Source: Beroe forskalii (taxonomy: Eukaryota > Ctenophora > Nuda > Beroida > Beroidae). From it: a DNA stretch of 64,000 bases. Positions within the stretch are counted from its first letter, which is position 1; every line of letters begins with the position of its first letter. This document shows, in pieces, positions 846 through 28,751 of this stretch. The translations under genes and the position numbers were made by a program. The stretch covers positions 62,001-126,000 of the forward strand of contig WFMF01000471.1 of NCBI GenBank assembly GCA_011033025.1, read 5' to 3'. Below the pieces are notes generated by a model. The model worked only from the letters and a program-made list of their open reading frames with translations. It was not told the origin of the DNA and made no database searches.

Positions 846-941
846 ATCCTGCAGAAAATCATGACATTCGGCATTCTGACAAAATACTTCAATCATGATT
901 GTTAGATTGATCTGACAAGTGACATGTTTGTAGCATGTAAC

Positions 942-1077: not shown

Positions 1078-1645
1078 GTATAGGTGGGTGTACAATGTAT
1101 AGGTGGGTGTACAGTGTATAGGTGGGTGTACAGTGTATAGGTGGGTGTACAGTGTATAGGTGGGTGTACAGTGTATAGGTGGGTGTGCAGTGTATAGGCG
1201 GGTGAACAGTGTATAGGTGGGTGTACAGTGTATAGGTGGGTGTACAGTGTATAGGTGGGTGTACAGTGTATAGGTGGGTGTACAGTGTATAAGTGGGTGT
1301 ACAGTGTATAGGTGGGTGTACAGTGTATAGGTGGGTGTACAGTGTATAGGTGGGGGGGTGTACGGTGGATGTGTATAGGTGGGTGTACAGTGTATAGGTG
1401 GGTGTACAGTGTATACAGTGTATAGGTGGGTGTACAGTGTATAGGTGGGTGTACAGTGTATAGGTGGGTGTACAGTGTATAGGTGGGTGTACAGTGTATA
1501 GGTGGGTGTACAGTGTATAGTGTATAGGTGGGTGTACACTGTACAGTGTATAGGTGGGTGTATGGTGTATAGGTGGGTGTACAGTGTATAGGTGGGTGTA
1601 CAGTGTATAGGTGGGTGTACAGTGTATAGGTGGGTGTACAGTGTC
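1078..1645 (+). repeat. 19-bp minisatellite, array 1
   Basis: About 29 copies of TATAGGTGGGTGTACAGTG, with a few variants such as a G-run near 1350 and partial units near 1410 and 1520. The long open frames across it (Y-T-H-L-Y-T-V-H-P-P type) are by-products of the repeat. The array starts at the last codon of the orphan exon and ends about 10 bp from a CFAP91 exon. The same unit occurs inverted at 20851-21290. Confidence 0.95.
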
Positions 1646-1654
1646 CAGACTAAC

Positions 1655-2682
1655 CAGTCTGAGACTCGCTCTCCCTGTACATGGTCTGCACCCCCACAGT
1701 CCAGGTGAGCGGAGTCGGGGGTCGGGACTGCTGCTGTTCAGCGGGGGGCATGGTGGGATCCACTCTCGTGGTCTGGAGCAGGACATCTGGTGGGACTTGT
1801 TGGAGGAAGGGGATGATGGGACGCCGGGAGAACTTGTATCTGTCACTGCCTGACACTGTCAGGTGGGCGTTCTGAGGCGGGAGTTACTGGGGTAAGGACT
1901 TAGCTTAAATAGTCAATAAATCAATAAGATTAAATCAGAAATTCCATACAAAATATTTTCGTTATGTTGTAAAATATCTAACGTCTGAGGAGATAGTCTG
2001 AACAGGTTGTTTCTGGTATCCCTGCCATTTCCTTGACATGAAGGATGGCACAGGGTCACAGCTGTCAATCTGTATCTGATGCTTGGGGAAGTGGCTTAGG
2101 CCAGAAAACATGGGTCCATAGTGGGGAACTTTTTTCTGAAAGGTGGGAGAGATAATGAATCATAATTCATATAGTATCGAGATTAAAGAGTAGAGATAAC
2201 AGTCATTTTAAGGTCAATATTCTACCAGTCATGTTAGATTTTGCAACGTTAAAGAACATTCTGAACACGCCCAACTATAAACTTACCACTCTGTCAGGTG
2301 CAATGTAGGACCTATACCTTTCCCTGGCATGGTCCCTATTGCTGGACATGGTGAATAGTGGGTCTGAAAAAGGTGTAAAAATTTATGGATAAGGAATACA
2401 GTATGCAATAAGGGGAAGTACACATTATTTTGTACAGTAAAATCACAAATTTAAAAAATTAAAATCCAGAAGAAAATTTACTGTTAATTAAGGGGTTGGA
2501 ATCACAATGAGAGTATGAGGAACAATATTTGCAGGCTATCATAAATCCTATTCCAATTCTAATAATACCATGTCGAATAAACATGAAATATTTGATAAAT
2601 ACAAACCATAGATGTAGTCATATCTCCGCTGTGTCTGGACTTTTGTACTTTGAAGGGTTTGAGTAGTGGTCATCCCACCCTG
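1655..2682 (-). CDS. CFAP91: CFAP91 (MAATS1), N-terminal exons, partial
   Basis: Four exons on the minus strand join in frame: 2682-2607, 2363-2287, 2135-1983 and 1871-1655. Acceptors are TTTTAG or TTTCAG types and donors GTTTGT, GTAAGT, GTTAGA and GTTAGT. Phases match at every junction (1, 0, 0, then 1 at the end). A start ATG lies at 2673-2671. Diagnostic segments in order are Y-D-Y-I-Y-D-P-L-F, then S-S-N-R-D-H, then M-F-S-G-L with D-P-V-P-S-F, then R-Y-K-F-S-R-R-P with P-F-L-Q-Q, and finally V-G-V-Q-T-M-Y-R-E-S-E-S-Q-T. These match the order and spacing of the N-terminal region of CFAP91. CFAP91 is an axonemal protein tied to the calmodulin/spoke complex and radial spokes of motile cilia. 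The next codon should start D-P, but no such exon is found to the left, where the minisatellite lies. The gene is therefore cut off by the window edge or by rearrangement. Confidence 0.85.
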
Positions 2683-4600
2683 CTAAAACAAATGTTCCAT
2701 AACACTCTCAAAGAAGGTTCAGATAGGAAGTATATCATAAATGGGACTGGCAAGAAGGGGAGCCTATGATTCTGCTTTGGATGCATGGGCTAAAAGTCAA
2801 AATTGAGGTGCTTATATTGCCAGGACCTGCAGCCTCCTAGACATTATACTGCCTCAAATCATAGCCCTAATGCAGTATGGTGGAGCCCACACCTTAGAAT
2901 AATCCTACTTCCGAAGGATCCTGGGTATTTTCAGTCTCAAATATGCATTTTTGGGCTCCTGTTCTTGCTGGGGCCATAAATGATAGAATTTAAAAATTGA
3001 AACATTTTCGAATCATATAGAAATCTTTCTTCAAGACATTAATCTGCAAGACTTTTCTCTAACTCCATACATGAACACCAACATGATCCCTTAAGGTATT
3101 ATTATTATTATTAAATCAGAATAGTACAAGTACTATCGAACCCTTAAGGTAATGCAATGTGAAGAGCACTAGGATCGAAGTGAGTCACACCAAGATGAGT
3201 GCTGTGCAGGCATCATCAGTCCAATACCTACCTCAGCTTTCAGGGTGTTTAAATTGCAAGAGCTTTTTATGAGGTAGGCCCCCAGCAGTCACCCCCTGGT
3301 ACCAAGGAATAGCATCATCAAGTGTGGTGACCACCTGCCTGAATGAAACTGAAAATTGCTCTTTGGTCTTTGCCTTTACTCCAAGCATCAAGAAATCAAG
3401 CAACACACTTAGTGAAGTAAACATCGAAATTTTAAGTTGCACACATAGCATTAAAGGGAGAAAAGTCTTGCAGATTGATTTCTTAAAGAATTCATTCTTT
3501 ATTGTGAGGAAATTTTTAAATTAGAATATAAAGAGTTTTCAATTTAACAACACTACTTTATACAATCAAATTTGAGGAAGGTGCTTATCACCAAATGGAG
3601 TTTTCTGAAGACGAGAAATAATATAATCATTTTTAATGTTGTATTCTCGAAACTGGCAGTAAATCAGTGGTGAAAAGTAGATCTGATTTGAATCCATTTT
3701 TGCATTCTTAGTGTCTTACTTTGGGGTCTCCCTCAGTCAATGCTAAAATCAATCAAGTTCAACAGAATATAAAGAAAGATTTCTTTTTAATTCAAATATA
3801 AATTTGTGGTTTTTAATCCACTTTCTATAGCTTGACAACAAAAATGACTGTATTTGTTCTACAAAGAAGGACGAAGGTACTGTCTATAGAATTTGGGATT
3901 GCATTAAAAATTATCTGTTGCAGAAATGAACAAATTATTCTTCATTCTTTTCATCTTCACTAAAAGGCTAGGCTGTAAAGTAATCTTTAATAATAATATT
4001 TCAGTTAAATTCCATGGATTTTTACTATGATTCGAGACAGTTATTTGGCACCCTTCTAAACAAATCAATGAAACAAAACAATTGGAATTTGTACTTTCCT
4101 GTGCCGATGTGTGCTCATCAGTCAAAATCAACTTGTATAAGGATGGTTAAAGAAGTAGTAAAAAGATATACTTATGTTCTGAACACTCATAGTAAGTTTT
4201 TCTTTGAGGAAAAACTGTTTTCTTAATCTTAATCTTCATCAATTGGGACAACAACGAATACAATAAGACAGTTTTGATCATTATCTTAAGCTTTTGTTTG
4301 ATGCAATTGATCATTGCAATGTAACAAAGAATTCCCAATTATGTAATCCAACCCACACATAATCTACTGACATTTCCGAGTTGATTTTTCACTGAAATTT
4401 TATTAATTATTTTTTACTGATGAGCACTCGTGGCAGTATGGTTCATTTCTTAAATACTTAACTAGAAAATCTACCAATATAGAACCATTTGCATGATTCT
4501 CAAGCAAATATTCATATGATTCATATTTGAATTAAAATAAATCTTTCTTCAAGATTTCTTCAAGATTTCTTCGCAAGATGCATCATTTCATTTTATCGAG
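2683..4600. other. No confident gene; upstream side of CFAP91
   Basis: AT-rich sequence. The only frame of note is a minus-strand stretch at about 3345-3232 ending in TGA. It has reasonable residue composition (R-Q-V-V-T-T-L-D-D-A-I-P-W-Y) and follows TTTTCAG in that strand. It could be a terminal exon of an unrecognised gene, but the protein matches nothing I know. The CFAP91 promoter should lie in this interval; no clear core promoter is seen. Confidence 0.3.
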
Positions 4601-4609
4601 CTTAGCTGA

Positions 4610-5410
4610 TCATTGCCTTAACCAGGACCCTGGCCCTGGTTTCGCTCAAGGTTAGGGGAAGGTTAGGGGAAGATCCTGTCAAAGACCAACTCATATGGCG
4701 CTTACTCTAACCAGAACCCTCTTTTGCGCGCGGCGCGCGCCGTCATTTCACTCCTCAAAAGAGGAGTGACATCGCCGATGGGCGTTAGCACCTGGTTAGG
4801 TGAATATGTGCGCGGCTTTTCCGATTTCCTTGCTCTAACCAGATCCCTAGTTTTACGCGCGCGCGCGCCGCGCCTTGCTCCAAACCAGGAGCAAGGCGCG
4901 ACACCCCTGGTTAGGGGAACCAATTTCCATGTGCGGCGTAATCTCGATCTCGCGCGGTTTACTGTCCACCTGTTAATTACAAGCAGTGAGCCGCGCAGAA
5001 TTACGACGCGCACGGAAAAGACGCCGCGCCTAGTTGTCAGGCCTTGCCTGACCCCCTCGCGCGCGCGAAGCGCGCGCGCCACGAATAATGGGTCTGACGA
5101 CGTCAGACAAGCGCCTAGCTTGTAGAACCTATTTTGCGAGCTCAAGCGCGCGCGCGTGTTCAGAGAACACGTTGCCTTAACCAGGGCCCTGGTTACGCGC
5201 ACGGAGTGCGCGGCAAGCGCTAAACACCCCTGGCTCTGGTTAGAGGAAGAGGACACGCAAAATGTTTGTGACTTTTCGAAGAAAAGGCGCGCGCGCGCGA
5301 ACAAACAGGGACACAAAGCATGTTCCCCTAACCAGGGGCGTCGCGCGTCGCGCGCGTAACCAGGGCCAGGGCCTGGTTAGGGCAACAAAGCATGTGGCAA
5401 ACACGCCACC
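4610..5410. repeat. GC-rich island of inverted CTAACCAGG / CCTGGTTAG motifs
   Basis: An 800-bp patch of high GC in AT-rich surroundings. It is built from repeated, mutually inverted motifs: TTAACCAGGACCCTGG, CCTGGTTAGGGGAA, TTAACCAGGGCCCTGGTTA, CCCCTAACCAGGGG and AACCAGGGCCAGGGCCTGGTTAGGG-type blocks. These are separated by GCGCGCGC tracts. The long frames on both strands (133 and 204 residues) result from lack of AT-rich stops and are Arg/Ala-rich; I do not regard them as genes. Confidence 0.7.
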
Positions 5411-5873
5411 TTGTAGGATGCAACCCTACCCTCCGCCGCGCGCACATCTTTTTCCGATGCAACCCTAGTATGCAACACGACCCTCCATCCATCAACACGC
5501 CGTCACGTCACCGTAAGGACAGAGCTTTAGGAAAATTTTGTGGCTTGACTGTAAAAAGATGACTGTATTTGTTTCCCAATGATAAACTTTGAATAGATTA
5601 AACATTGACTAAATAATAATACTCACCATATTTGAACCATAAAGCAAACTTTCTTCAAGACACCAATCTAAGCTACATACTGGTAGAAATTTTATTTATT
5701 TCTATCAGTATTTCATTAAACATTGATATGAGTTGTGTGCCAGTATTCAGTGTTGAAATTTATTGGATTTAGTTCTACTTTTTTAATTCTATTTTTAAAG
5801 AATCATTTTTCCTTCAATTCGAATAATACAAATTAATTATTAAAAAATTCATTATTAATTCTAGCAGCGTCCA

Positions 5874-5935
5874 AGTCACTACCTAGTAACTACTAGCTAG
5901 TGAGTCACTACCTAGTAACTACTAGCTAGTGACTT
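5874..5935 (+). repeat. Tandem dimer of a 30-bp unit
   Basis: GTCACTACCTAGTAACTACT with AGCTAGTGA is repeated twice head to tail. It is followed by non-coding sequence up to the PH exon at 6584. Confidence 0.8.
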
Positions 5936-6583
5936 ACATTGCATACGGGCCAATATGATCACACATTATGATGAGAGCTAGTATTAAACTTCAAGATTGT
6001 AGGGATCAGATCATTATGTCTGGTAATTGTTGGTGGAAGGAGGGGAGGTTGCAAAAAACAGATATATGGGGGAAATTGGCTAATAGGGTTTTCACTTTTT
6101 GGGATCTATGGGGGGATTTGGACACCAAATTTCTGGAAGATAGTACCATGTTTTACCACCTTATTTGTTGGAAAGGTGGGTTTTTCAGATCATTTCTCAG
6201 CCTTTCTGAAATAGTACCATTTTTATTGAAATTTAGCACATTTATGAATTGGTACCATTGATATCTGCAATGAAATTTAGCACATTTTTAAATTGTAGTC
6301 TGTCTAAAGTGGATATGAAAGAGTCTAAGCAGGGTATAATTTTTGGGGTTTATGGGGTTTTTCAGAATGCCCCCCTCATAATATAATAGAATGGCTAGTC
6401 TTTAAGATTCGATGAATTATGCTCTACTTCACTGTTATAACAAGTAAAAGGCTATTATATTCTTTCATTACCTCCATGGCTTTATTCATATTCCTAATAA
6501 TTATTATAATTATACTCCAAGTGATGAAAGATGATGAAAATAAAGTTAATCCTTATAACTTGATAAATGATTATTACTTCTAG

Positions 6584-8818
6584 GATGCTACATGGCTGCT
6601 GATATTGTATGTCAAGGATATTTGACAAAAGCTCCACCATTAGAGCAAAAAAGAAGTGTAAGTTATTTATATAGATTTGCTATTTAATTTTTGGATGTTT
6701 GGAGATATTTGAATGACTTCAGGTCTGATTTACTTATTTTTATAGGACCAGATTTGTACCACCAACATGAATTTATTAATTAGCTTTTAATTGTACTTCT
6801 GAAAATTTATGCATCTAAGTCAAATTTTACTTATATTTGACTTTGATATTCAGCTTGCCACAATGCCACAGATCATATGCAAAGGGATGTCCATGGGGTA
6901 ATGGCTAAAATGTTTGTACCTACTCTTTTAACTAATATTCCACAGTTTGAATACTAATAGAATTGCAACTTTACCTAACCTCTTTCTGCGATAAATCATC
7001 ATGACAGTGCACCAAAATAATCTGCAGCAATCATCATCCAATATGTAATTGCACATTGATGCTTTGAGGTATATTATAAATAAAATTCGTCTTGATAATA
7101 TATTGCTTTATGATTACAAAGTAAACCTACATATCATCACTATAGCCAAGAACATCAGATAATTATAGATAGGTTATCTCCTGACTTATGTCATGGTTGT
7201 GTTCACGAACATTACCAGTACTTCTCTCTAGTACCTTTAGACGTGAACATTTCAACAGGCCATTACGAGTGACGTGGCGATTGTGGTGAAAGCATGTTGA
7301 TCCTGCCACAAGAAGAAATATATATTTTTGTAATCAACATAAAGTCCAGGACATAAATAGGCGTTTTTACTTCATCAATACATTGGTTAAGACCATGATA
7401 ATTACGTCACTCTGAACTGCATGTTATGTTACCAGACACCCCTGTTCTATCTTCAAAGTTAACAACACTATCACCCAGTAATTATACTATCAAGCTACCA
7501 GGATAAGTTTATCTCAACTAGACATTGCACAAAACCCTGATAATATATATATCACGGCTAGTTAGATATACACCCGACTCAGTGAGATATATAGATATAT
7601 ACTCAGAGCACCTCACCATGTCAAATGTGAAGGCTGTGCACGAATAGGAAGCAGTTGTGAGTGACGTCATCATCATGGTTTAAAACAGTGAGCTGTGGAC
7701 GTTGTACCGCCTATTTTCCTTGCCCTCCCCAACGCATATTACACCCGAGTACTGTCGTCACTTCATAGCTCACTACATTTAGCACAGGTGGAGCTGGGTT
7801 GTCTGTAGTTAATGTTTGCAGAGTGACAGAACGCTGGAAGGGTACTGTGTCCGGTTTAAACGTTTATTCATCGAGTACTACCTCGAGTTTAGCTAAGGAA
7901 TTTATAAAGTTGTTCCTAACTGGTGTAAAATCAGTAAAAATGTCAAAATTAGAATATAATATTGTTACCGGCAGACTTTTAAAATCTTCAGGTTAGGTAT
8001 CTTAAAAGAATATGAAATAGACCAACCGGTGCCCCAGAACTTTCGAAATATGTGATGAGCTGATGTGAATGGAGATACATTTCATATCATTTTCCCTAAA
8101 AGCTTGAATTTAGTAGCTACACATCTTTTCTGATTAATAGTCTGCACAGGTGTAATACGTGTATTCATGTATTGTAGTACGACAATAAGATATACAGTCG
8201 AAATAATTAATGACTATAAGAATTCGACACACAATGTGAAATTGAAAACTGATCATACATTCCTACCACTTAGCCTCATAGGGCTAAGTGGTATGTGCTC
8301 TCTAATGGACTGAAAATATCCGATAGTAAGAAAAGTTTCTTTTCAATATCGAGTCTATTGAGTAAGAAATTACAATGCCTATTTAGGTATTTACCTCGTT
8401 CATTATGCTATTTCATACATACATACCAGAGAAAATCATGTGATATTTTCAGGAATGGTGCCGACGTTACTTCACGCTAAGCAGAGCAGATAGAATCTTA
8501 AGGTTGGTGAAACTGCCATAGCTAATTGTAATTATGACATTCAATTTCAACTCAAAAGTTAAAAGCTGAAATTGAAATAACATGTTTATTGTCAACATAT
8601 TCTTAGATTGGCAAAGGCCTATTTCGCTATCCAAAAATGTCAATTATCTCTATATATTTCCAAACAGGGTTGCTAAGAACATGACCTTTTAAACTTCTAT
8701 TGTACTTTATTCAGGTATTACAAAGATGAACAAAACTTGGCCAAAGCTAAGGGGGAAATAGCTCTTTCCCAAGTCCTGAAGATAAATGTTCCGTCGGAAC
8801 ACAGCCTACAGAATAACT
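6584..8818 (+). CDS. PH-domain protein, GAB/DOS-like, first three exons
   Basis: Three exons splice in frame: 6584-6657 (acceptor CTTCTAG, donor GTAAGT), 8453-8502 (acceptor TTTTCAG, donor GTTGGT) and 8715-8818 (acceptor TTATTCAG, donor GTAAGT). Phases are 0, 2 and 1. A start ATG at 6592 gives M-A-A-D-I-V-C-Q-G-Y-L-T-K-A-P-P, then E-W-C-R-R-Y-F-T-L, then R-Y-Y-K-D-E-Q followed by K-G-E-I-A-L-S-Q. This is the beta1 to beta4 part of a pleckstrin homology domain. The V-C-x-G-[WY]-L-x-K-x-P-P start resembles the GAB/Daughter-of-sevenless adaptors, in which the PH domain binds phosphoinositides at the membrane and opens the protein. The rest of the PH domain and the tail are not found. An exon beginning in phase 1 is needed after 8818, and the GPCR at 10301 would lie in that intron. 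The GAB-like assignment rests only on this short region. Confidence 0.75.
7641..7719 (-). repeat. CRE-bearing palindromic short element, copy
   Basis: Read on the minus strand it starts GGAAAATAGGCGGTACAAC, passes GTTTTAAACCATGATGATGA and ends with TGACGTCACTCACAACTGC and CCTATTCG. The two ends are imperfect inverses of each other. It is the same family as 49345-49428, 50148-50232, 57944-58022 and 60523-60600, with partial copies at 15245-15290 and 47884-47950. The full 8-bp CRE TGACGTCA lies at 7662-7669. Confidence 0.6.
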
Positions 8819-8980
8819 GTAAGTTTTTATTCTCATCATCAACCAGAAATTTCGTAAGTTATGTCATTCACAATCTGTTATGAATCATAATGATGCTAAA
8901 TAGTAATAATTTCTCAGGATTAATTTCTTGTCCTTTATCCGTCGCTTTCTCTTATACTACCTTACAAGATAAAATAACAT

Positions 8981-9130
8981 GGGACAATAATTCCGGGGAT
9001 CGAAATTTTGGGGGTTCGAAAATATGGGGATTTTTTTCAAAAATCCCCAAATTTTGTTCCCCAAATTAAATTAGGGGATTTTCGCCTTTTTTCAAATTCG
9101 AAAAAATAAGGTAACTTTTGGGACAGGGAA
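8981..9130 (+). repeat. Dispersed G/T-rich repeat, copy 2 of 3
   Basis: GGGACAATAATTCCGGGGAT followed by ATGGGGATTTTTTTC and AAAAATCCCCAAATTT. It has the same block order as 301-460 and 9353-9480, and the internal GGGGATTTTT/AAAAATCCCC arms form a hairpin. Confidence 0.6.
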
Positions 9131-9352
9131 TAAATCCGAACTAGCCCAATATCACTTTGGTGATCGATGTAGTAGAATTTCCAGTACAAGATCCCTTTTA
9201 TCGAGTCGAGTGTAGAAGGTTTTATTTGGAATTACTGCATTTTAGATAATTTGAACCCTTCTGTACTGATAATTGATATTTTTATTGAAATTTGTCCGGG
9301 AATTCCATATTTTATGCACTGTAAATCAAATCATAAACCCGCAATTAACTAA

Positions 9353-9480
9353 TTTGGGGGAAATAATTTTGGGTATCGAAATTTTGGGGGAACGAAAATA
9401 TGGGGATTTTTTCGAAAAATCCCCAAATTTCGTACCTTTTAAATATGTCTCGTAAGGTATACCGATAAAATTGCGTTTTG
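9353..9480 (+). repeat. Dispersed G/T-rich repeat, copy 3 of 3
   Basis: GGGGGAAATAATTTTGGGTA through ATGGGGATTTTTTCG, AAAAATCCCC and AAATATGTCTCGTAAGGTAT. The last block is also shared with copy 1 at 430-450, which shows the repeat extends beyond the hairpin. Confidence 0.6.
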
Positions 9481-10168
9481 TGTTTTTGTGTGTGTGTCCC
9501 ATGTCTAACGAGACATTTTTTAATACCAGCTGATCAGTGATCCTACCAAATGTTGCGGGTTTCAAATCAATTTGTTAAAGCTATTTGATGAGCGTTCGAC
9601 GCAGAAGTCGGCACTCGGTAGATTGACCTGCCTCGTTCCTTTATAGATGCGTATTTAAATTCTATATCACGCGTCAGCTGTGACTTTCAAGGCGAAAAAG
9701 TGAGATTCAGATAACAAAATAAGTGAAATTGTCACCCCTGACTGCTAGTGCCCACTATATATAATCTTTTTGACATTGTCCAATCAGCACAGCTCGTGTG
9801 CAGGTTGGGCAATTTTAAATGGGCCTGTTCGAAGGTTTAAGCTCCACCGATTAATTACTTTATTTTCTGACAAAATAAAGTAAAATTTTTGACAAAATAA
9901 AAGATGGCTACGTTTGACAAATCATCCTCCACAGAGACAAAGTGTTTATAAAATCAAACGTTCAAATTTTGTAAAATCAACGAACAAATTAATCAAAATT
10001 TCTGTTGAATTTGCCACGAAAATATCCATAGCATTCGTTTGATCGAGTATAAATAATCCACTCATAAATCACAATGCAACTTATTTTCAAAACTCTGTGT
10101 TCTCAAGACTTCTGTACTTTGAACTTGCAATAAGATATTGCTTCTAAAATCTGCTATTTTTCTTAGCG

Positions 10169-10261
10169 ATGAATTTTCCCAACTCTACACAGTACAGTAT
10201 GCTGACTATTTTCAAATCTCATTGTTCTCAACTTGCTACTAAATCTGTTTTGAACTTGTAA
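10169..10261 (+). other. Decoy upstream ORF from tandem duplication of the GPCR start
   Basis: TTAGCG followed by ATGAATTTTCCCAACTCTAC at 10169 resembles the true start TTAGCG ATGAACTTTACACAGCAC at 10301. The upstream copy encodes M-N-F-P-N-S-T-Q and then runs off to a TAA after 30 codons. The preceding about 110 bp (from about 10080) align to the about 110 bp before 10301, so a block of 5' leader plus first codons was duplicated in tandem. If transcribed, it is an upstream ORF just ahead of the receptor. Confidence 0.65.
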
Positions 10262-10300
10262 TTAAATAAGATCTTGTCACTTAAACCAGCAATTTTAGCG

Positions 10301-15039: not shown

Positions 15040-16110
15040 TAATTGCTGAAAATATTGAAGAATGGAAGAAAAAGGTTTTCTTCATTCCGTGTTCCATTAA
15101 AAGAGGAAAATTTGGTTTATCATTTTTAAATTTGCCCCCAAGAAGGGTTGCGAGAAAACCTTTGCCCTTTGGCCTTTTCCCACTAAAGCAGTAAACTACT
15201 GTAACTCCAGACCAAGTAAAACGATTCCCCCCCTAAACAACTTTTAGAGCATGATAATGACGTCATTTTAACTGCCGATTTTTCATTCAAGGCCACTGAG
15301 ACACCTGTTGGTGACATGATTATTCACTGGTAGGCTAGCCAAATTGAGCCGTCTGGGAGAAATTTTAATGGGCCTGTGTTCCACCCTTTTTAAGTTCCTT
15401 TTTACATGTGTTGCAGCTAATTTTTTTTATCTCAAACTTTTTATCTTTTGTTTTATGAAAATCTTTGGATATTATTAAACGGCATAAGTTTAAAAAATTT
15501 ATTTTTTCATGTCTTTTAGGGGAAAAAACCTTACTTTTTTGCACCTAAACATTTCGACCCCCAAAGGCTTCCCTTTCCCACACAGGAAATTTTATTGAAT
15601 TCCCGGGAAAAGTATAAAAAGAACTATAAAAACATTCCCAAGAGAGATATAATAAGGTTTATCACCTGTGAAGGTTTTATAAAACACATCAAAGCTTGTT
15701 TCCGGGGTGTTGTTTAAGTTTAAAATTTTTTTAACCTTTTCCCGACTTAAAAATAAACCCCGGGGGGAAGAATGGGTTCATTTCCCCAATTCCAAGGAGA
15801 TAATGACATCAATTAAAATGCCCGGTGGGCATATTAAAAGTTAGAAAAAAACCTTTTTTCCTTTATTTTACAAAAGTCCATTCAAAAAGGGGGTTTAAGT
15901 AAACCCAAAAAAAGCTGATCAATTAAGAGGGAAGGTTTACCAGATGTTCCAGGAAGGTCAATGGATTTGGAAAAAATAATTTGCATGTTTGGTTTTTCCA
16001 AAGCAAGAAGGTTTTTAGGCGTGGATTTTCCCGAAAAATTATATAAAAATCACAATGCCTCGGGAAATTTTTGGTAAAAGCGGGGAAAACCATTTAAGTC
16101 AAGAAAACGG
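15040..16110. other. Probable low-quality or artefactual sequence
   Basis: The texture changes abruptly to strings of doubled and tripled bases such as GGGGAAAAAACC, CCCCGGGGGGAAG and TTTTTTTAACCTTTTCCC, unlike either flank. This resembles tails of poor sequencing reads rather than biology. Any exon between 14990 and 16110 would be unreadable here. Confidence 0.5.
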
Positions 16111-16122
16111 TTTTTTTCGTCA

Positions 16123-16380
16123 GCAGGATCTGCCCAAACTGCATCATCCGAAAGCCATGAAAGACCTTTGTTCACTCCCTTCTTTGAGCCCATTATCGAA
16201 GCGAGATGCATGTCACTCCAGTCATGTCAATTCTACAAAGTGAACGAACAAACTGAGCCAAAAGCCATTACCGCCATAACATCTGGGTCAATAGAAGAAA
16301 TGCAAGGACTCTTCCTGGAAAGAAGGCAACAAGTGAACTGTACGATGCTTCTCCCGGTGCCACAGACTTCGTTTCCCTAA
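16123..16380 (+). CDS. Candidate terminal coding exon, unrecognised
   Basis: After a pyrimidine-rich stretch ending CGTCAG, a frame stays open for about 85 codons to TAA. It includes E-R-P-L-F-T-P-F-F-E-P-I-I-E-A-R-C-M-S-L and ends V-P-Q-T-S-F-P. Residue use is more gene-like than in neighbouring frames. It enters in phase 1, the phase left open by the PH-gene exon ending at 8818. It could therefore be the last exon of that gene, but exons completing the PH domain would still be missing. The overlapping frame at 16055-16243 is shorter and less plausible. Confidence 0.35.
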   Translation, partial: AGSAQTASSESHERPLFTPFFEPIIEARCMSLQSCQFYKVNEQTEPKAITAITSGSIEEMQGLFLERRQQVNCTMLLPVPQTSFP

Positions 16381-17699
16381 GAAAGAGGATAAAGAGGGCG
16401 TCAGCATTGATGAAACCAGTGTAATGTTAAGACCCTGAACTTCAATAACAAGACTGTTCTTTAATAGCAAGACTGTTCAGTGTTCTTCGTGTTATTTATT
16501 TGAGTGTACATTTTCAGGTGAGTGCAGTGAGTGGTTTTGGTGAATTGGCGTTGCGTTTTGACTCTGTGCGTGTGTGTGTGAGGTGTGTTTGTGCTTGCGT
16601 TTGTTAGTGTGTGGCTTTTCTCTTTTCTGTTCATGAGATATTCTGTATGTTTTAATATCTGATCAACTTTGTTTGTCTTGTTGTTATGATTTTGTAATTA
16701 TTAAATTTAATGCTTTATATTTTTTCAGTAATTGTGCCCTTTTACCATTTTGCCCCTTTGAACTTTTGTTTCGAGACCATTCATTTCGCCTCTTATTTAC
16801 CTTTGAAATTTTGTTAATTTATTCTACTGAGGATATTATTTGTATTTGGTAACTTATTAAAAACTCTTTATATGTTAGTAAGTGTTATTTATTGTATTTG
16901 TAACTCGGGTTCCTTTATTAACTTATGACTTTGAATATTGGATGCAATTAATGTATTTTGTCCAAACAGAGGTGTTAGTGCCTCTTAGGACTATATTTGT
17001 TTAATTCCTGTTTAATTCCTGTTTAATTCCTGATTAATTCCTTGATGACACCTAGCTCTACGACCTGTATGTGTGGCAGTACCTAAAACTTAGTCCATAC
17101 TGCTTTGCCGAGCTTGGATATAAAATTGCTTCAGCCATGTCTATTGTCTGATGATTCATGGCCGATATTGACCAAACATTTTATTTTGACTTATTTGTAT
17201 ATATGTTTTTTTGTTGTTGCGGTATGATTGTAGTTGCAACATCGAAATGTTTTTAAACTTTTAACTTTTAACTCTTTTAAACTATTTTAGCTATTTTTTA
17301 ACACTTACTTTTTTAGCTAGTTTGTAGCAACTTTTTACAATATAAGATTGCTAGATTGTTTTTGGGGTAGGATTGGTATAATTTTCTCTGATAAGGATAA
17401 TATGGCTACCAAAGTATCTGTATTTAAAAATTTCTAGGCGGCCCCAGCATCAATATGACTATGTCATGCGTCTGGTTCAGCCGATCAGTCCCACTTTGCC
17501 TGATCTGGTCTGTATAATCCATTCATATAAACATAAAGAAAATATCATACAGATATTTTGTTGTGATTCGTATTTTGATATATTTGAAAAGAAAGGGCAA
17601 TGATGGACTGATAAATTTGATTATTTATTTATTTTATTTTTATCAGGTTTTTGCTAATAACCTGAGGTATACAATGAAATCTACAAGCCTCTTGGGCAG

Positions 17700-18690
17700 A
17701 GATGCAGAAATAGCATTGGCCATGTCTTATAATGCCCAAAACATCAGTTTTTCGCCCATAACTTTGTTCCGGAGCATTTCAAATCCAGATCCAAAATCAA
17801 GCTTCAATGGCCAAGATTGCTTCCACAATGCCTTGCAGGTGCCTAAAACACAGTTTTTCGCCCATAACTCGGTTCCTCAGCATTTTAGGGCATATGTCTG
17901 TGAACAAGTCGTCTATAAACATGGCCATTGCGCTTCTTTCAAGCCCTAAACGAAGTCTCTACGACCTTCCTGGCCGAGATACAAAAAACGCTTCCACAAT
18001 GTCTCGTGGGTGCCCAAAAAATCATTTTCGCCCATAACTCGGTTCCTGAGCATTTAAAGGCATATGTTTATTAACAAGTCGTATATAAACATGGTCATTG
18101 CGCTTCTTTTAAGCCCAAATTGAAGTCTTTACGACCTTCCTGGGCCGAGATACAAAACCGCTTCCACAATGTCGCGGGTGCCCAAAAATCAGTTTTTCGC
18201 CAATAACTCGGTTCCTCAGCATTTTAGGGCATATGTTTATTAACAAGTCGTATATAAACATGGTCATTGCGCTTCTTTTAAGCCCAAATCGAAGTCTTTA
18301 CGACCTTTCTGGATCGAGATACAAAAATCGCTTCCACAATGTCTCGCATGTGCCTAAAAATCAGTTTTTTGCCCATAACTCTGTTCCTGAGCATTTTAGG
18401 GCATATGTTTATTAACAAGTCGTATATAAACATGGCCATTGCGCTTCTTTTAAGCCTAAAACGAAGTCTCTACGGTCTTCCTGGGCCAAGTTATGATTTT
18501 TCACAGGTCGGTCATTTGCTGCGCCTCAACTAAAATCGATTTTTTCAACTTTCCCCACCCTGGAAAGTCTTGGAAAGTTGCTAGATCGATTTTTTGGGCA
18601 AAAAACTATAGAAAACAGTCGAAATCGCTTGGTGTAGAATTTGTTCCGATTTTGGGCTATTTTCGGCCAGATTTGACTGTACTATTATGC
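17700..18690. repeat. R repeat, left copy, with about 170-bp tandem units
   Basis: About four imperfect tandem units with period about 170 bp begin TCGCCCATAACTCGGTTCCT at about 17858, 18027, 18196 and 18368. They are followed by a unique 190-bp end (18490-18690) finishing with ATTTGACTGTACTA. That end is repeated inverted at 27310-27490. The frames at 17807-18533 repeat within it and are not genes. Confidence 0.8.
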
Positions 18691-18717
18691 AGTGCAGAAC
18701 TTTTGACAGGTTCTCTA

Positions 18718-18891
18718 CGTTTCTAGGTTTGGTACAATTCCATGGCTTAACAAATCCAACGTACAGTACTAAGCTTGAACAAAAACACTTTTAACACAAT
18801 AACACACGTTTAGTGCAATGTGAATCAATTGGCAGGAGAAATTCCAAAAAAAATTGTGTAGCTATGTGATTGTACTAAACCTAGAAACGTG
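18718..18891. mobile_element. Short MITE, left copy
   Basis: The ends CGTTTCTAGGTTTGGTACAA and TTGTACTAAACCTAGAAACG are inverted repeats. The same element is at 30560-30762, where it is flanked by TA on both sides as expected for Tc1/mariner-type insertion. Sharing at the same place in both gene copies means it was present before the duplication. Confidence 0.7.
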
Positions 18892-18908
18892 CCAACCAAG
18901 TAGCAAAC

Positions 18909-20619
18909 CTGCTAAAGTTCCTACACTGATACACAATGAAACCAGTATACAGACCAGAGGCTTGTCCAAATGACTGAACAATAATTGCTGGAGGACGTTG
19001 AATGTTCTGATTGTTTTGTTGCCTCTGCGATGCCTGTTCTTCAACTTGGGTTGGCTTTTGGGAGTGAGACAGCTTTTTATCTTTCCCCAAATGTTTACCC
19101 ACAGTAAACACTTGCTTGGTTTGGATCAAATTCTCATTAAAGGTCAATGGTCCAGCCTTGACCGTCTGATTTGCTTGTGCCAAATGATGAGAATTATTCT
19201 TCTGTTCAGTTGTTGTGACCTGTTCACCTCGGATATTCTGCACTTCTTCACTGTGCTGTTCAGCAAGGAACAGTTGTCTGTTTTTTGAGAGCTGATTGAG
19301 TTCGGCATCCAAATCAGCTTGGTTAACCTGACTAACTTCATCCCTTCGAATGCCTTGTTTCAGCTTTTCGGCTTGAATTTTATGCTCATGAGCATTCAGC
19401 ACTACTTTATTCTGTTTTTCAGCCAGGGCAATTTCTTTGTTTTTTGTCAGCTGATCAACATGGACTAACAGGTTAGCTTGGTGTACCTGATGAGCTGCTT
19501 TCATCTGATCAGTAAGATTCAGCTGTTCAGATAGAATTTCCTCTTCTGCTTGGATGTACTGTTTTTCTCCTATCTGCTGTTCATCCTGCGTCATTAGATT
19601 GCTTTTTGTTAGTTGATCAGCTTTGTCTTGTTGATCTGCTTCGGACACTTGTTCATAATACTTTGTGTGCTGCACACCTTCGTTTGGCTGCTTAGTATGT
19701 TTCTGTTCTCCAGCATTGATCTCCACTTCTACTTGGGCCTGGTGTTCAATTTGGGTCAACTTGTTATCCTGATTTAGCTGTTCAGGCTGGTTCAGTTCTT
19801 CAGACTGGATCATCTGTTCATCTTGTGTTTCCTGCCTGTCTCGTTCAGCTTGAACATGGCTTTCAGCTAAAGGATTATTGTCACTGACTTTGTCTGAACT
19901 TTGTTGATACAAAGTTTGCTGGACTTCTGACCTCTCATTGCCGCTCAATAACTGCTCAATCATATTTCGTTGTTTTGTCAGGCAAAGTGTCTGGGCTTCT
20001 TGGTAACTCACTGGCACTACCGAGGGTGCAGATAGTTCGGTGAGTGGTGTTGCTGATGCCAGTACAGCCTCAGGCATGGATCCACTTTCACAGCATTGAT
20101 AGTCAGGGTCGATTTTTTCTGTTTTTATATGAACTATTGGTGAACTCTCGAGACGAGAGGGCTGTTTGGCCCTGATTGACTTCTTTCTTGCCGTTTTCTT
20201 TCGTTTTCCTGACTCAGAATTTCTTCTTTCATTTGACTGATGAGTAGGTTGACTGGAGCTCAGAGAGATTTCTATACCAGGGACCTCTGACACTTCCTGG
20301 TTAGAACACCTTGATGATAACTGCAAATAGAGATCGGTAGCAGCGCAACTATCAGTTCCATAGTTACTTCTGAGGTTCCTAGAACATAAGGAAGTGTTAG
20401 TTGTCTTCCTACGCTTTTTTCCAGGATGTGAAAAAGTACTTTTCCTGCCAGTCACCAAATAAGGGGTTGATGCAGTGGTTTTTCGAGCATTTCGTTTGTT
20501 AGCCAAGGACTTAGTAACACCTTCACTGTTTGTGGAGGGGAAGGGGATAAAGGAAGCTGTGGCTGTAGGGGCAGTGGTTTTTGTGTCATTGAAGACTTCT
20601 TTTCGTATACCGAGTTGAA
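18909..20619 (-). CDS. Exon A, left copy (duplicate of 28811-30539)
   Basis: Near-identical duplicate of exon A, open throughout on the minus strand from the acceptor TTTTTTCAG at 20620-20628. It keeps the basic head (K-R-N-A-R-K, G-K-K-R-R-K), the SUMO-consensus-like site I-K-T-E and the long Gln/Glu-rich tail. Differences from the right copy are mostly substitutions and indels of whole codons: G-I-R-R-D-E-V is present here, and S-D-Y-R-V is absent. The frame is thus preserved. In this copy exon B' lies upstream on the minus strand (21958-21291), the wrong order. The fragment is unlikely to make the same protein unless spliced to other exons. Confidence 0.6.
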
Positions 20620-20850
20620 CTGAAAAAATCGTAATTATAAAATACGAATATCCAAACCTAATAACGAAATCCTATATACAAATTGTTGCCATGATAACAA
20701 TAGTACCAAAATAAGTCTTGAAAGAGGGGATATTTTCATGGCAACACTTTATTAAGTAGTCAAGTGACCAATGATAACACATGTTTTTACCTACCACTAC
20801 TAGCCATGACCCACCCATCTAGGTACTAGGTATATACACAAACATTATCC

Positions 20851-21290
20851 CACCTATACACTGTACACCCACCTATACACTGTATACCCACCTATACACT
20901 GTACACCCACCTATACACTGTACACCCACCTATACACTGTACACCCACCTATGTTACTGTACACCCACCTATACACTGTACACCCACCTATACTGTACAC
21001 CCACCTATACACACTGTACACACCCACCTATACACTGTACACCCACCTATACACTGTACACAGTTCCACCTATACACTGTACACTGTACATAACCCACCT
21101 ATACACTGTGTACACCCAATTTTATACACACTGTACACCCACCCATACACTGTACACCCACTATACACTGTACACCCACCTATACACTGTACACCCACCT
21201 ATACACTTACACACACTGACCCACCTATACACTGTACACCCACCATACACTGTACACCCACCATACACTGTACACCCACCCATACACACC
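20851..21290 (-). repeat. 19-bp minisatellite, array 2 (inverted relative to array 1)
   Basis: About 20 copies of CACTGTACACCCACCTATA, the reverse complement of the unit at 1078-1645, with more divergent units. It begins exactly where homology of exon B' stops (21291) and lies 230 bp upstream of exon A' on the minus strand. Confidence 0.95.
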
Positions 21291-21958
21291 ATCATTATCG
21301 TCAGAAAATTCCAGCTGACAGTTTGGATATTGCTCCTCTAAATTGGTGAGTAAGGGGATCATAATTTTTCGAAGTGGACACAGTTTTTATATGCCTCTGA
21401 AATTCGAACTTATTCTCAAATACTTCGTAACACACTGGACAAGCAGTGCCACATGTGAATGTTCCAATAGAGCACTTGTTAGTGGTAGGAAGAGTGAAAG
21501 TCTTGTCTGACACAGAATTATCGACATTCATTAGCGTGGCTGAACGATTGGAAGTAGTCAAAGAAGCATTAGAATTGGTGGGTTTGGTATGGGTAGCATA
21601 AACCATAGAGGGCTTACTTCGCTCAGGAGTTGAATTTTTCACATGCAAAGGGTGTATTTTCTGAGTTAATGAATGGAAAGAATTTTCATTCCTGTGAATT
21701 CTTTCTGATCCAACACAATAACCGTGGTCCCGAATAGCTATCTGCTGTGCTGTGAGTTCTGGGTTTCCACTACATTTTTGTTTTTCTGATGCTGTAGAAA
21801 TACTTTTGTAAATCCTTGATCCGGGTAAAAGGTTGTATTCAATTGTTCTTGCCCTTGACTTTTGACTAATGATATCAAAATATTGTCTCTTTCTGTCTTT
21901 ATCAGATCTTTGAACCTCTTCAGGACGGAATCGGTAAAGTTTTTCAGCTAACTTGTCC
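21291..21958 (-). pseudogene. Exon B', truncated copy of 32293-34258
   Basis: Matches the first third of exon B from the acceptor (GATTTTCAG at 21959-21967) through the first C-x2-C motif. A 5-bp deletion at about 21327 shifts the frame just before the second zinc motif, and homology ends abruptly in the minisatellite at 21290. The remaining about 1.3 kb of the exon is missing. Confidence 0.85.
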
Positions 21959-22211
21959 CTGAAAATCATGAATTTAAATTTTAGTTGGTGGGAAACCAAT
22001 TTTCTTTGATATACTTATTTCATGATCATTATACAACAATTATGATCATTATACAACAATTCAAGAGAATCTGTGAATGTCAAATCAAATTGATTATCAA
22101 ATTGTGAAATATAGTCTTATAGTGCAGCTCCTTGCTGTAGATTAGAAAAAATATCATTAATTCTGGCAAATTCAGCAATTCAATTCAAAAATTTATTTGT
22201 TCACTTCTGGG

Positions 22212-25200
22212 TCCAACGGATTTTTGCATCGAAATTAAAATCGAAAATAACAAGCTGATTTCACCTGGATAAGTTCCCATTGGGTCCCCTGAGGTCACAC
22301 AAAAAAGTCTACTAAAATCTGAGTGGGGCAAATATGATTTTTTTTCAAATTTCCCTCAGGCGCGTAGGCGCGTATATTCAAAATAGGATATCTCAGCTTC
22401 TGAATGAGATACGGACCTCCATGAGCACCTCAAAATGACCGCAATAGTCGAGTTATATTGGGCGGACGAGGTTTCTAGGGTCCCAAAACCTTTACTTTTC
22501 GAGATATTGTCAAAAAACCAATACGCGGCTAGCGTATTTGAGTGATGCAGGTGAAAATGTGCATTTCAGTCCTAGAGATTCTTACCTTTACTCCTAAGAA
22601 TAGAAAATAATGAGCTTATTCCACATTTATAAGTAACAATGGCCCCTGAGGCCAATAAAAGTTCAACAATCAACCAAGTGAGGTGAATTGTGTTTTTACA
22701 ATTTTCCCTAGAGCAAAACCACGCAATGCCATGTACCTAAGTCCAAAGTGTGGAAAACTTGTATTTTAGCTTAGTAAGATCATGCAGAATTCATTATTGC
22801 AGCTTAAATTTTTTGCTATGACCATGAATCATTCAAATTGAGAAGCCGTCACATTTGTTACCTCAACAGCAGAGGATTGAAGGGGTTTCCAAATTCTGAC
22901 AGTAGCTGACAGGAGGAAGGGGGTCAAGGTTAGATCAGCAAAATTTTTGAGATTTTAGTGGCAGTTGGCACACACTGATTGTGAAATAAAATCTAAGTTA
23001 TGAAATAAGATCATAGAAATAGATATTTGCATTTATGAAGTCGTGATGCTCATTATCCCAATCATATATAACTGGCCAACTGGGATGTTATGCTTCAATT
23101 TTGCAACAGAACTAGATCATATTCAATTTTCATCAACCATGAATGCAGGAATGGTAATTAAACTGGTAAACTATTTCAAGAAGTTTCCTCAATATCCACT
23201 ATCCATTTGGGCCAGGAAATCATATATAGCATCATCGAAGATCACTGGTGATGCTCTTATACTCTTATTATTTCATTTGAGTTGCTTTAATCAAGTGACT
23301 GAGATGCTTGCACAATTCAAGACTTTCACCATTCATGAGCCACACAGATTATGCAATCCACAAATGAGCATGTACATCATGATTTCAATCATACTGTTGA
23401 ACGAGTGTAGGCTTTTTAGCAGATTAGTCAAAAATGAACCAAAGATGGCTATGGGCCATCTCCCAAATTCCCTGGCTATTTCACTCAGCAAACTACTGAC
23501 TCATCCCAGTTAAACTTTATAATAAATGTATAAATATGTTCATGATATTGATTGAGGTTCAGCTGGACTTAACGGGTAAAGTCCAGAAAGTATAAGCCAT
23601 TATAAGTTATAAATGATTACTGTGCAGCTAGAAAATATATACCTGCTTGGATAAATTTATTCAGTGAGTAGGTTGCAGATTGTAATCAGTGAGCTCAGCA
23701 CTTGCAAGTGTTGTTACTTGTTATCAATGTCATACAGTATTCTGCACCCCTAGAATTCCTACACATCATGAAAAGCCTGAGGAAACTCCAAATGAATTTT
23801 AGATGTCACTTTCGCAGACATGATGCCTACATCAACACCCCAATCTAAGAGTTTATCAAGGCTGTGACTGCCCTGAATCTTTTCACTCCTGATTCACATT
23901 AGTATTGATGACCTATTAAAGCTTTCAAGGCTATTAAGGTTTTGGTTATTGAAGGGTTGAAGAGTCCATAATCCATTGCGAGATAAGAGTACACAATGTG
24001 GTTATTCATGTTGTGCAACTGGGCAAGTGCAGCACGTTTTACCAAAAGTGCACAATACGTTGGATAAATTTTCAAGTTTCATAGAGTGCATTATCATAAG
24101 ATAAGATACCACATCCAGTACAAAGAGGTAGCTCAAATTTTTTGCATCCAAAAACAGTTTCTGGTTCATAAGTTTATCATTATTCACTAGTTCACTGAAT
24201 GCTTTAGTTCATGTGCCAATTAATCTGGAAGCTGTCATATACTCACATATATTGTTCAAGTAATTGTTGACAATTTCATACCCCCTCCCTCTCCTCTGTA
24301 AGCATTGGGTATTGACAAGCCTCCCCCTGGTGTTGGCTTAACCCCTGCCCAAAAATGTACTACTTGGGTTAGAAATATTGTACTATTGTAGATGAAAAAT
24401 CTCCAAATTTTTGCTGACATAACCTTGACCCCCTTCCTCCTGTCAGCTACTGTCAGCATTTGGAAACCCCTTCAATCCTCTGCTGTTGAGGTGATAAATG
24501 TGATGGCTTCTCAATTTGAATAAATCATGGTCATAGCAAAAAATTGAGCTGCAATGATGAATTCTGCATGATCTTACTAAGCTAAAATACAAGTTTTCCA
24601 TACTTTGGACTTACATGGCATTGCATGGTTGTGTTCTAGGGAAAATTGTAAAAACACATTTTACCTCACTTGGTTGATTGTTGAACTTTTTTTGGCCTCA
24701 GGAGCCATTGTTACTTATAAATGTGGAATTAGCTCAGAGGCCATCCATAAAGGACGTCCGCAAAATTTCGGCCATTTCAGACCCCTCCCTCCCCCTTGTC
24801 CGCAAACGTCCGCAATCCAGAAACCCCTCCCTCCCCCCGGACGTCCGCATTTTTCTTCAAAATCTTTTGGGTCATCATTTTTGGCCCCGAAATTTCATGA
24901 TTTTCTAGTGAAATAGCCGTCAAATCGCCCAAAATTTCCATGAATTGCGGACGTCCGCATTTGGCCAAACACCCCCCTCCCCCCTACGTCCGCAAACGTC
25001 CGCATTGGCCAGACTCCCCCCTCCCCCCTCATTGCGGACGTCCTTTATGGATGGCCCCTCATTATTTTCTATTCTTTGGAGTAAAGGTAAGAATCTCTAG
25101 GACTGAAATGCACATTTTCACCTGCATCACTCTAATACGCTAGCCGCGTATTGGTTTTTTGACCATATCCCAAAAAGTAAAGGTTTTGGGACCCTAAAAA

Positions 25201-25469
25201 CCTCGTCCGCCCAACATAATTCGACTATTGCGGTCATTTTGAGGTGCTCATGGAGGTCCGTATCTCATTCAGAAGCTGAGATATCCTATTTTGAATATAT
25301 GCGCCTACACGCCTGAGGGAAATTTGAAAAAAATCATATTTGCCCCACTCAGATTTTAGTAGACTTTTTTGTGTGACCTCAGGGGACCCAATGGGAACTT
25401 ATCCAGGTGAAATCAGCTTGTTATTTTCGATTTTAATTTCAGCCCATTTTTATGCGAAAATCCGTTGGA
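22212..25469. mobile_element. Foldback element with long inverted arms (3.26 kb)
   Basis: The ends are TCCAACGGATTTTT and AAATCCGTTGGA. The left arm (22212 to about 22925) and right arm (about 24410 to 25469, including a nested MITE) are inverted copies. They share segments such as CTGATTTCACCTGGATAAGT and CTCAACAGCAGAGGATTGAA. The element is absent from the matching place in the right gene copy (about 32040), which gives an empty site. A target duplication is not evident. The central 1.5 kb has a 156-codon frame (23043-23513) and a minus-strand 61-codon frame (24187-24002) that I do not recognise. They could be decayed transposase, but there is no motif to support it. Confidence 0.8.
24737..25057. 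mobile_element. GGACGTCC MITE, nested intact copy
   Basis: The termini GAGGCCATCCATAAAGGACG and GGACGTCCTTTATGGATGGC are inverted repeats. The flanks CTCA (24733-24736 and 25058-25061) duplicate the 3-4 bp target, and the uninterrupted target is visible in the opposite arm of the host element near 22632. Short internal GGACGTCCGCA repeats and CCCTCCCCCC tracts are typical of the family. There is no coding capacity. Confidence 0.8.
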
Positions 25470-26289
25470 CTAGGAGAATAAGGTCAAGTGTCAGGTTAAT
25501 TACTTAACTATGACTGAGCCCTGAGAACATAACTACCATACTCCGCGTATTAGAAATTGGCAGATTGCTCCGATTTTCCACATCTTATCAGGTGATCTTC
25601 TTTTTGTGTCATACCAAATGGACCAACCAGATAGTTGTATCTGATATTTCCAACGTCAGATATACAACCACCCTATTGGTCGATCTGGTATCATATACGA
25701 AGAAAATCACGTGATAGGCTCTTGAAAATACGTGGAGTATAAGTTTCAACTATTCAAGATCTAATCTCAAAAATTGAAGGAGATTTTAATATTGATATAT
25801 TTTTGGCAAGTTGCAATTCATGTTCAAATGCTTACTCTGTAATAAGTTATTACAGGTTGCAGCTTGAATCAAATTTACAGCTTGAAAATGCTTTATTTTA
25901 GAAAGGAACAATTTTCTCACGGCCTGGTAATAACGTACAGAAAGCTAGCACTCTCCTCAATCAAAAGCATCAGAAAACCTTATAGTTATACCAATCGCAG
26001 ACCCCCTGGCCCCCTTATTCCTTAATTTATTTCATTTAAATACTTACATTTTTTGTTTTTTACATTCTATGGCATGAGCAGTCTTTTTGTCGATCTTGAT
26101 TACTTCAGAATCTCCTGAACAATTTGATTTTATGCTTCTTTTAATGATAATCAATGTATTATAGAACCCTCAGACGTTTTCATGCGGGTCTATAATATAT
26201 AGACACTAGCCTGATCGGGTCCATATTAGTTTACACCCTCCCCCTGCAGGCTTGGGCCAAAACCGGATACATCCCTTGGGCTTACGCCC

Positions 26290-26852: not shown

Positions 26853-27309
26853 TTACGCCCTCGGGCAGTATCCCAAAATGGACCCGATAGGCGCATGTCT
26901 ATGTATTTTTTAACAAGGTATTCATACACCTACAGTATAATTGAACGACCACTTTCAGATTTCATCAAAATATCAACGGTATACTGCCCATGTCTCACAA
27001 ACTCAGGGGCCTCTATAACTCTATAACACATCATATGATCAAATGAAATTGATTGATCAATCAACTAGACTTCATTTGAACAACTGATGCATATGGTGTC
27101 ATACTACTAGTACTAATTACTAGCCTGCTAGAATATTATAAACCTTATTGGCCTTTATTTAACCTCCATTTTTTAACCGGCTCTTTTTTAACCAGCCCTA
27201 TCGACGAAAATGGAATCATTTTTGAACCAGTAGATAAAACAAATTTGATTGATCGACCAATTCCAATCAAACAACTGATGTGTTAAGGTTATATTATATA
27301 CCCCTTATA

Positions 27310-27690
27310 GTACAGTCAAATCCTAATTTTTTCAGGAACAAATTCTACACCAAGCGATTTTGACTGTTTTCTATAGTTTTTTGCCCAAAAAATCGATCTA
27401 GCAACTTTCCAAGACTTTCCAGGGTGGGGAAAGTGCCGAAAAATCCATTTTTAGTTGAGGCGCAGCCGACTGACCTGTGAAAAATCATAACTCGGCCCAG
27501 GAAGGTCGTCGAGACTTCGTTTTAGGCTTAAAAGAAGCGCAATGGCCATGTTTATATACGACTTGTTCATAAACATATGCCCTGAAATGCTCAGGAACAG
27601 AGTTATGGGCGAAAAACTGTTTTTTTGGGCACCCGCGAGACATTGTGGAAGCGATTTTTTGTATCTCGGCCCAGGAAGGTCGTAAAGGGG
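27310..27690. repeat. R repeat, right copy (inverted)
   Basis: Starts TAGTACAGTCAAATCC and continues with the reverse complement of 18490-18690 and one about 170-bp unit. Its left end joins the A-B intron sequence (minus strand) at the same place where the left exon A' joins the other R copy. Confidence 0.75.
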
Positions 27691-27699
27691 CTGGCAAGC

Positions 27700-28466
27700 C
27701 CCCGCGGCGGTTTGCAGAGCCCGAGGGCCCAGGGCCTGAGGGCGAATTGGACGGCAACCTAACAGAGCGAGGGCCGAAGGCCTGAGAGCCTGAGGACCCG
27801 GGGTCTGAGGGCGAGCATTGAGGCGATTCTTAACGAGAAATATCTCATGTATTTCCACATTTCACGAAGAGAGAACATTTTAGGCGAAAAGTACCCTCTT
27901 TAAAAGCCATATCTCGAGAACCGTAAAAAGTACGGAGCTCATCGACCCAGCGTTGGAAAGTAGAAAGATAGAACTTGCGAACATTGCCCTTGAAAAGCAT
28001 CTTACGTCATTTTGATGACGTCATTATGACGTCACAAAGTCGTGAATTTCATATTTGATTTCCGAAAATTGGCGTTTTTCAGCGCAATTTTTCGGCATGA
28101 AGCTTTGAGATAGTAAAATGCCTATGATAATGCAGAAAGGAAATTTAATGTACTTTCCAAAATGGGGTCGAAAAGTTCCGGCCCTCCAGCATCATTGAGA
28201 TATTTGCAATTGTTTGAAACACTTTGACACGAAAAATCGCAAAAATAGCAAAACGGTAAGGATGAGTTAGAGAGAACAGGACCATCCCAGAACTTCATCT
28301 TTGGATATGTTGTCGGTCATAGTCCCAAGTGTGCTAATGAATGGGTCTCAGATAGCTCATCTAATTTTATGACGTAATTGTGACGTCATCAGTAATGCTA
28401 GTAACGCGAATTTTGTACGCGCGATTTGACGCCAAATTTCAATATCTGAGCACAGAAAAGGATGAT
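27700..28466. other. Unassigned spacer, GC-rich then CRE-containing
   Basis: A GAGGGCCCAGGGCCTGAGGG-type patch (27700-27820) is followed by AT-rich sequence with several TGACGTCA-like sites near 28010-28045. No gene is seen. The frames on the minus strand here overlap the R repeat. Confidence 0.4.
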
Positions 28467-28751
28467 ATTTTTCCAAAACCAAAAAGGATTTGGTTGTGGT
28501 GGTCCGCGGCGGTTTTAAGGCGTTCTTCACGGTAAAACCCATGATATGGAATAGAACGCGACGGTTAAAACTGCCGCAACGGCACTTTTCGAAGCATAAT
28601 AGTTTCGTGAAAGCTGTACATTTTGAAGTGACGTTGCAGCAGTTTTAACCGTCGCGTTCTATTCCATATCATGGGTTTTACCGTGAAGAACGCCTTAAAA
28701 CCGCCGCGGACCACCACAACCAAATCCTTTTTGGTTTTTGGAAAAATTTGT
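28467..28751. repeat. Large near-perfect hairpin at the duplication edge
   Basis: Two arms of about 115 bp (28467-28581 and 28637-28751) are almost exact reverse complements; both contain GGTCCGCGGCGGTTTTAAGG or its inverse. They are separated by about 55 bp. Homology to the left gene copy begins right at the outer edge of the right arm (about 28745), so the hairpin marks the 5' border of the right gene copy. Confidence 0.85.

Follow-up and report, generated by a model that had tools for sequence, protein, structure and literature searches.

Reinsertion of an extrachromosomal DNA circle is a known kind of event, and clustered rearrangements with templated insertions go by the mechanism names microhomology-mediated break-induced replication (MMBIR) and fork stalling and template switching (FoSTeS). 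In human cases, clustered rearrangements with interspersed duplications have been documented (PMC6258378), and Galileo, a foldback-like transposon, has been documented at inversion breakpoints in Drosophila (PMC2775673, PMC3573991). Here, we analysed a 64,000-nucleotide stretch of the genome of the ctenophore Beroe forskalii (hereafter the window; positions 62001-126000 of contig C549, WFMF01000471.1, in an assembly of 216 Mb and 1,134 contigs), which carries an uncharacterised gene and, upstream of its main exons, inverted copies of parts of that gene. We favour, with modest confidence, the explanation that a scrambled partial self-copy and a piece of a foreign locus lie inside intron 1 of this gene, which is itself colinear. 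Its exons are the following:

924..1077, + strand: E1, candidate first exon, 51 codons with a phase-1 end
28811..30570, + strand: A, exon of the intact copy, 28811 being the first base after the acceptor
32293..34258, + strand: B, exon of the intact copy, with a weak C2H2-like finger below the Pfam cut-off

The intact A-B pair spans 28.81-34.26 kb on the same strand as E1. When E1 and A were joined in frame, the product stayed open for 636 codons; joins one or two bases shorter stopped at codons 111 and 61. The likely donor from A to B, judged from phase, is CAG/GTTTGC, with the exon ending at 30539. A previous sequence-only reading had treated E1 as an orphan exon, taken an inverted piece (A', below) for a displaced exon, and proposed two inversions whose reversal would restore colinearity with A' and a further piece, B'. 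E1 is not necessarily an orphan, as it can be joined in frame to intact A. Nor is a flip needed: the + strand already carries E1, A and B, and B' is short and frameshifted where B is not. The proposed in-frame fit of E1 to A', both in phase 1, does hold, but A joins equally well: the acceptor is identical in A and A', so phase cannot choose between them. If E1 is real, a colinear E1-A-B gene would exist in the present order and may work without any flips. No relatives of E1 were found among the 40 of 495 genomic candidates scored, and Pfam matched A to two families (E 0.03-0.08) and B to C2H2 fingers, all below the cut-off.

Next to E1 and within the copied DNA lie two minisatellite arrays, and around the second are grouped the pieces of the partial copy:

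1077..1644, + strand: array 1, 19-bp minisatellite with unit TGTATAGGTGGGTGTACAG, 30.2 copies, native flank E1
20849..21290, - strand: array 2, the same 19-bp minisatellite, inverted relative to array 1, 22.7 copies
18685..20687, - strand: A', exon A and flanking intron copied in inverted orientation, the exon open throughout
20688..20848, - strand: u160, upstream of A', no second copy reported, probably native intron 1
21291..22215, - strand: B', copy of exon B's first 667 bp and some intron, inverted, and broken off within the exon by array 2

A' is a 93% copy of 28742-30794(+) and B' a 95% copy of 32036-32965(+) (BLAST identities, gaps counted), with substitutions alone ranging from 1.0 to 3.2% over the parts. 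With A-B intact at 28.8-34.3 kb, A' and B' form a second, partial, inverted copy, which rules out that they are the displaced original gene. Relative to the intact copy, 48 of 1,718 bases were substituted in exon A and 7 of 667 in exon B, alongside 6/189, 13/437, 19/807 and 5/245 in the intron parts. All exon-A indels (18, 6, 9 and 21 bp) were multiples of three, as against 3 of 16 in the introns (p 0.007; the count excludes a 3-bp gap at the very end of exon A, caused by where the slice ends, and the 5-bp gap of B'). The latter is a frameshifting deletion about 30 bp before the array-2 cut; when it is counted, four of five exon indels are in frame (hand-calculated p about 0.025). Over the 630 bp that precede this frameshift, B and B' differ by five synonymous and two other changes; a dN/dS ratio (nonsynonymous over synonymous rate) for B would include the frameshifted terminal codons and was not used. 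All in all, most of the divergence between the copies arose while both were coding, as would be expected of alleles, or of duplicates that were once intact, with truncation coming later.

The two arrays, 568 and 439 bp long (the repeats of the second spanning 20849-21287), are indeed inverted, with A' beside the second, as previously described: their best match, on opposite strands, reached 517 bits, whereas 30 random pairs of stretches from the window gave 23.8 at most. A two-unit 38-mer, searched with up to 2 mismatches against the 216-Mb genome, gave 25 reported hits, all 25 inside arrays 1 and 2, and the unit looks private to the E1-A-B locus. This confinement rules out a common dispersed repeat; arrays elsewhere matched at 77% or less, bar three short stretches (84% over 62, 81% over 52 and 78% over 80 query bases). 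No common run of unit variants was seen by eye in arrays 1 and 2, which are thus not one array written twice. The donor of E1 falls in the first unit of array 1 (GAT/GTATAG or TAG/GTGGGT). We also observed that the donor-like word AG/GTGGGT sits in most units of array 1, directly after E1; splicing from later units would shift the frame, because 19 is not a multiple of three. The order E1-array-160 bp-A', in line with the sequence-only reading, is plausibly native, because the other array flanks (a CFAP91 fragment and B') are truncated.

The remainder of the copied region is bounded or interrupted by mobile elements:

17037..18684, - strand: R arm 1, part (about 1.19 kb) of a foldback-type transposon with terminal inverted repeat TAGTACAGTCAAATC and ~170-bp tandem repeats
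27308..27687, + strand: R arm 2, opposite end of the R insertion whose first end is R arm 1
22211..25470, no strand assigned: TE1, insertion that separates the intron copy from B'; its ends are long and inverted (GTCCAACGGATTTT)
27687..28746, + strand: TE2, dispersed repeat between R arm 2 and A, with ends as in other copies
16117..17032, + strand: TE3, a dispersed repeat of retroposon-like type, its tail repeat 11 bp long, lying between X (below) and R arm 1

The R pieces are inverted as claimed (17813-18647 versus 27335-27687, 88-92% identical) and adjoin A' on one side and the copy of the A-B intron on the other. They are, however, not two copies: both are opposite ends of one insertion, which formerly sat in the A'-B' intron and whose empty site is retained in intact A-B. 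The single insertion and its empty site rule out two independent copies of R and, equally, show that A'-R-intron-B' was once continuous, in agreement with the order previously proposed. As in foldback elements, R has long inverted arms with internal ~170-bp tandem units, and elsewhere in the genome its arms occur in opposite orientation within single loci (for example L052, L058, L059, L060, L063 and L065). The terminal motif was present in 14 of 15 fetched copies and preceded by TA in 13 of those 14; at the E1-A-B locus the target duplication could be TA or TAA. R arm 1 holds a 462-bp insertion at 17180-17641. Compared as possible halves of one element, TE2 and TE3 did not match. TE2, about 0.9-1.5 kb long and dispersed, was placed on several dozen contigs among the 40 scored of 945 preliminary candidates, and its right end is a 281-bp near-perfect palindrome (28467-28747).

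Between array 1 and TE3, the DNA largely derives from another locus, on contig C158:

1644..16070, - strand: X, copy of C158:271490-242791, inverted but colinear, with some insertions and gaps

The 28.7-kb source is shortened to 14.4 kb in X. Most of the supposedly inverted block thus maps to C158, so that an ectopic duplication is needed in any case. As expected of template switching, the insertion was copied from a distant locus, and C158 retains the source. X and C158 were compared piece by piece in the parts outside 4597-9899, whose expected partner is C158:248330-256000. Identity was 94.7% at 1644-2235, 88.8% at 2236-2990, 79.5% at 2986-3501, 78.6% at 4385-4596, 95% at 9900-11273, 83% at 11387-11600, 86% at 11500-13296, 90% at 14112-14646 and 73% at 14641-16070. 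X begins with three 5' CFAP91 exons on the minus strand (2349-2287, 2135-1983 and 1871-1656), identified by a match to solved CFAP91 chains (4e-22), and array 1 cuts it 11 bp into the intron that follows the third exon; the CFAP91 domain itself was found on C158 alone, immediately downstream of the point of match. In these exons, 4 of 434 bases differ from C158, and the 601-column block with exons 2 and 3 contains 32 differing columns. X also holds a rhodopsin-type G-protein-coupled receptor (GPCR; 10286-11239, assigned by Pfam). The GPCR copies (9929-11119 versus C158:247100-248300, locus L067) differ by 42 synonymous and 3 other changes over 273 codons, and just upstream only 7 of 372 aligned bases differ. 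Such a contrast suggests either gene conversion, with a diverged relative as donor to the coding part, or unusual conservation of the region upstream.

In the parts tested, everything that separates array 1 from A is duplicated or mobile DNA, apart from u160 and array 2, both apparently native to A'. The copies and their order, the split of R, the array junctions that truncate CFAP91 and B', and the match of X to C158 can be seen directly. In the favoured explanation, the gene would run E1-intron 1-A-intron 2-B on the + strand, colinear as it stands and with E1 as its true first exon, and intron 1 would hold about 27 kb of mostly duplicated DNA. The first part of this insert would be the inverted, shortened copy from C158, and the second an inverted copy of array-u160-A-R-intron 2-TE1-B' in circularly permuted order. 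The permutation may have been set by breaks at the 19-bp array and inside R, the copy having passed through a circle, with its ends joined B'-to-array and opened inside R, or having arisen by a template switch with the same outcome; TE2 and TE3 would have arrived at or after the joins. The X/array and B'/array joins show, by eye, no clear shared bases beyond a few, and the other two are masked by TE2 and TE3. The more specific proposal, that in the germline the gene's own segment became a DNA circle, closed by its private minisatellite and opened inside the foldback transposon, and was put back reversed into intron 1 beside the foreign segment, leaving the gene colinear, is in our view doubtful.

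Several observations weigh against the favoured explanation. The coding score of E1 is unremarkable and only mildly favourable, being reached by 8.4% of 6,539 stop-free, overlapping non-coding frames matched to it in length, and E1 is a candidate rather than a proven coding exon. The dN/dS of 0.71 between A and A' means that substitutions alone show little constraint on A. About 1 kb of R is missing if the full-length element is ~2.6 kb, an estimate made with no full-length copy seen. Parts of X are only 73-90% identical to C158, and the GPCR copies have a synonymous divergence (dS) of 0.25 (dN 0.005), both of which speak for a copy of X older than that of A'-B'; they suggest that X is an older or a converted copy. 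The X/R and R/A joins are masked by TE3 and TE2, where an assembler could have crossed, and later inversions, if admitted, would make a circle unnecessary.

One alternative, which we regard as unlikely, is an assembly chimera, in which pieces of a second, diverged haplotype from the C158 and A-B loci were joined through arrays and dispersed repeats. The inner gene pieces do copy sequence present elsewhere (A'-B' 1-3% and X 5-27% diverged), their coding parts are conserved as in alleles, and dispersed repeats occupy the joins at 16.1-17.0 and 27.7-28.7 kb. By comparison, the flank at 39400-42200 had no second copy among the 40 of 621 candidates scored, and the 7 kb left of the window none among 40 of 361, bar one repeat in each case. 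Arguing against a chimera, 109.7 kb of C549 and 40 kb of C158 were read without any N, the arrays are probably short for long reads, their unit was found nowhere else in the genome, and they lack a common variant run by eye. The suggestion in the sequence-only reading that an assembler walked wrongly through repeats is sound insofar as the arrays could re-pair their flanks; it would not account for the four places where unique sequence meets an array (two of them cutting CFAP91 and B' short); such junctions are no shared repeats, and some molecule should contain them.

Serial inversions would begin with the gene partly duplicated in tandem, in the order E1-array-A'-R-intron-B'-array2-X-A-B. 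Two inversions that overlap would follow, one broken within R and where X joins A, the other between the inverted arrays. When the pieces were moved as symbols, the two previously proposed flips did yield the order claimed for them, and both flips run backwards gave this starting order. Inverted homologous arrays are present at both breakpoints, as an array-mediated inversion requires, and are a good substrate for the second step, although alone they do not prove a flip; the long inverted arms of R make a break there plausible, Galileo being known for inversions (PMC2775673, PMC3573991). Flipping between the arrays first gave E1-array-u160-A'-R but left the R arms direct, so that an R-to-R inversion cannot be the next step; the flip that follows has its breaks within R and next to TE2, with no inverted R copies to drive it. 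When the R-to-R flip came first, the arrays became direct. Repeat-mediated inversion thus restores the order on paper, but not with both steps as simple inverted-repeat inversions, and in this respect, as in its need for a flip, the earlier interpretation, partly supported overall, is not borne out. Jointly with the tandem duplication, we consider serial inversions improbable: the R step cannot be recombination between the R pieces, because these were direct before it and the inverted pair that such recombination requires was not there, we saw no second R at the X/A join, this history calls from the outset for an array copy lying between B' and CFAP91, both truncated, and the events are, by our own count, no fewer than for one insertion into intron 1.

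Elsewhere in the window, further large tandem arrays occur at 44725-45843 (29-bp units), 58275-59537 (51/101-bp units), 62777-63267 (100-bp units) and 63366-64000 (19-21-bp units). An open frame at 41456-42160 encodes a Psq-type helix-turn-helix (Pfam HTH_psq, 4.5e-07), with no second copy among the 40 of 621 candidates scored, except a repeat beside the frame.

Compared with known systems, R resembles Galileo and Foldback in its long inverted arms, internal tandem repeats and many copies, and in that its two ends lie at two different breakpoints with the original target flanks kept; this likeness is one of structure. Unlike in Galileo, a single split insertion is present rather than two chimeric copies, and the event looks like an insertion or duplication, not a simple inversion. 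Like rearrangements of the MMBIR/FoSTeS type, the locus joins in one place several duplicated pieces of mixed orientation, one of them from another locus, but its permuted piece starts and ends in one transposon and there is no clear microhomology at the two readable joins. Like a reinserted circle, it holds a contiguous segment in circularly permuted order, closed at B'/array and opened inside R; it differs from a demonstrated case in that the permuted order could also come from two inversions. Were the circle true, this would be a natural, sequence-resolved germline circle reinsertion. The locus also cautions that an inverted order of repeats is not proof of inversion. It is a complex rearrangement of a known kind, well preserved, and since two of its four new joins are readable to the base and the empty site of R fixes the earlier order, it makes a good test case for separating serial inversions, template switching and circle reinsertion.

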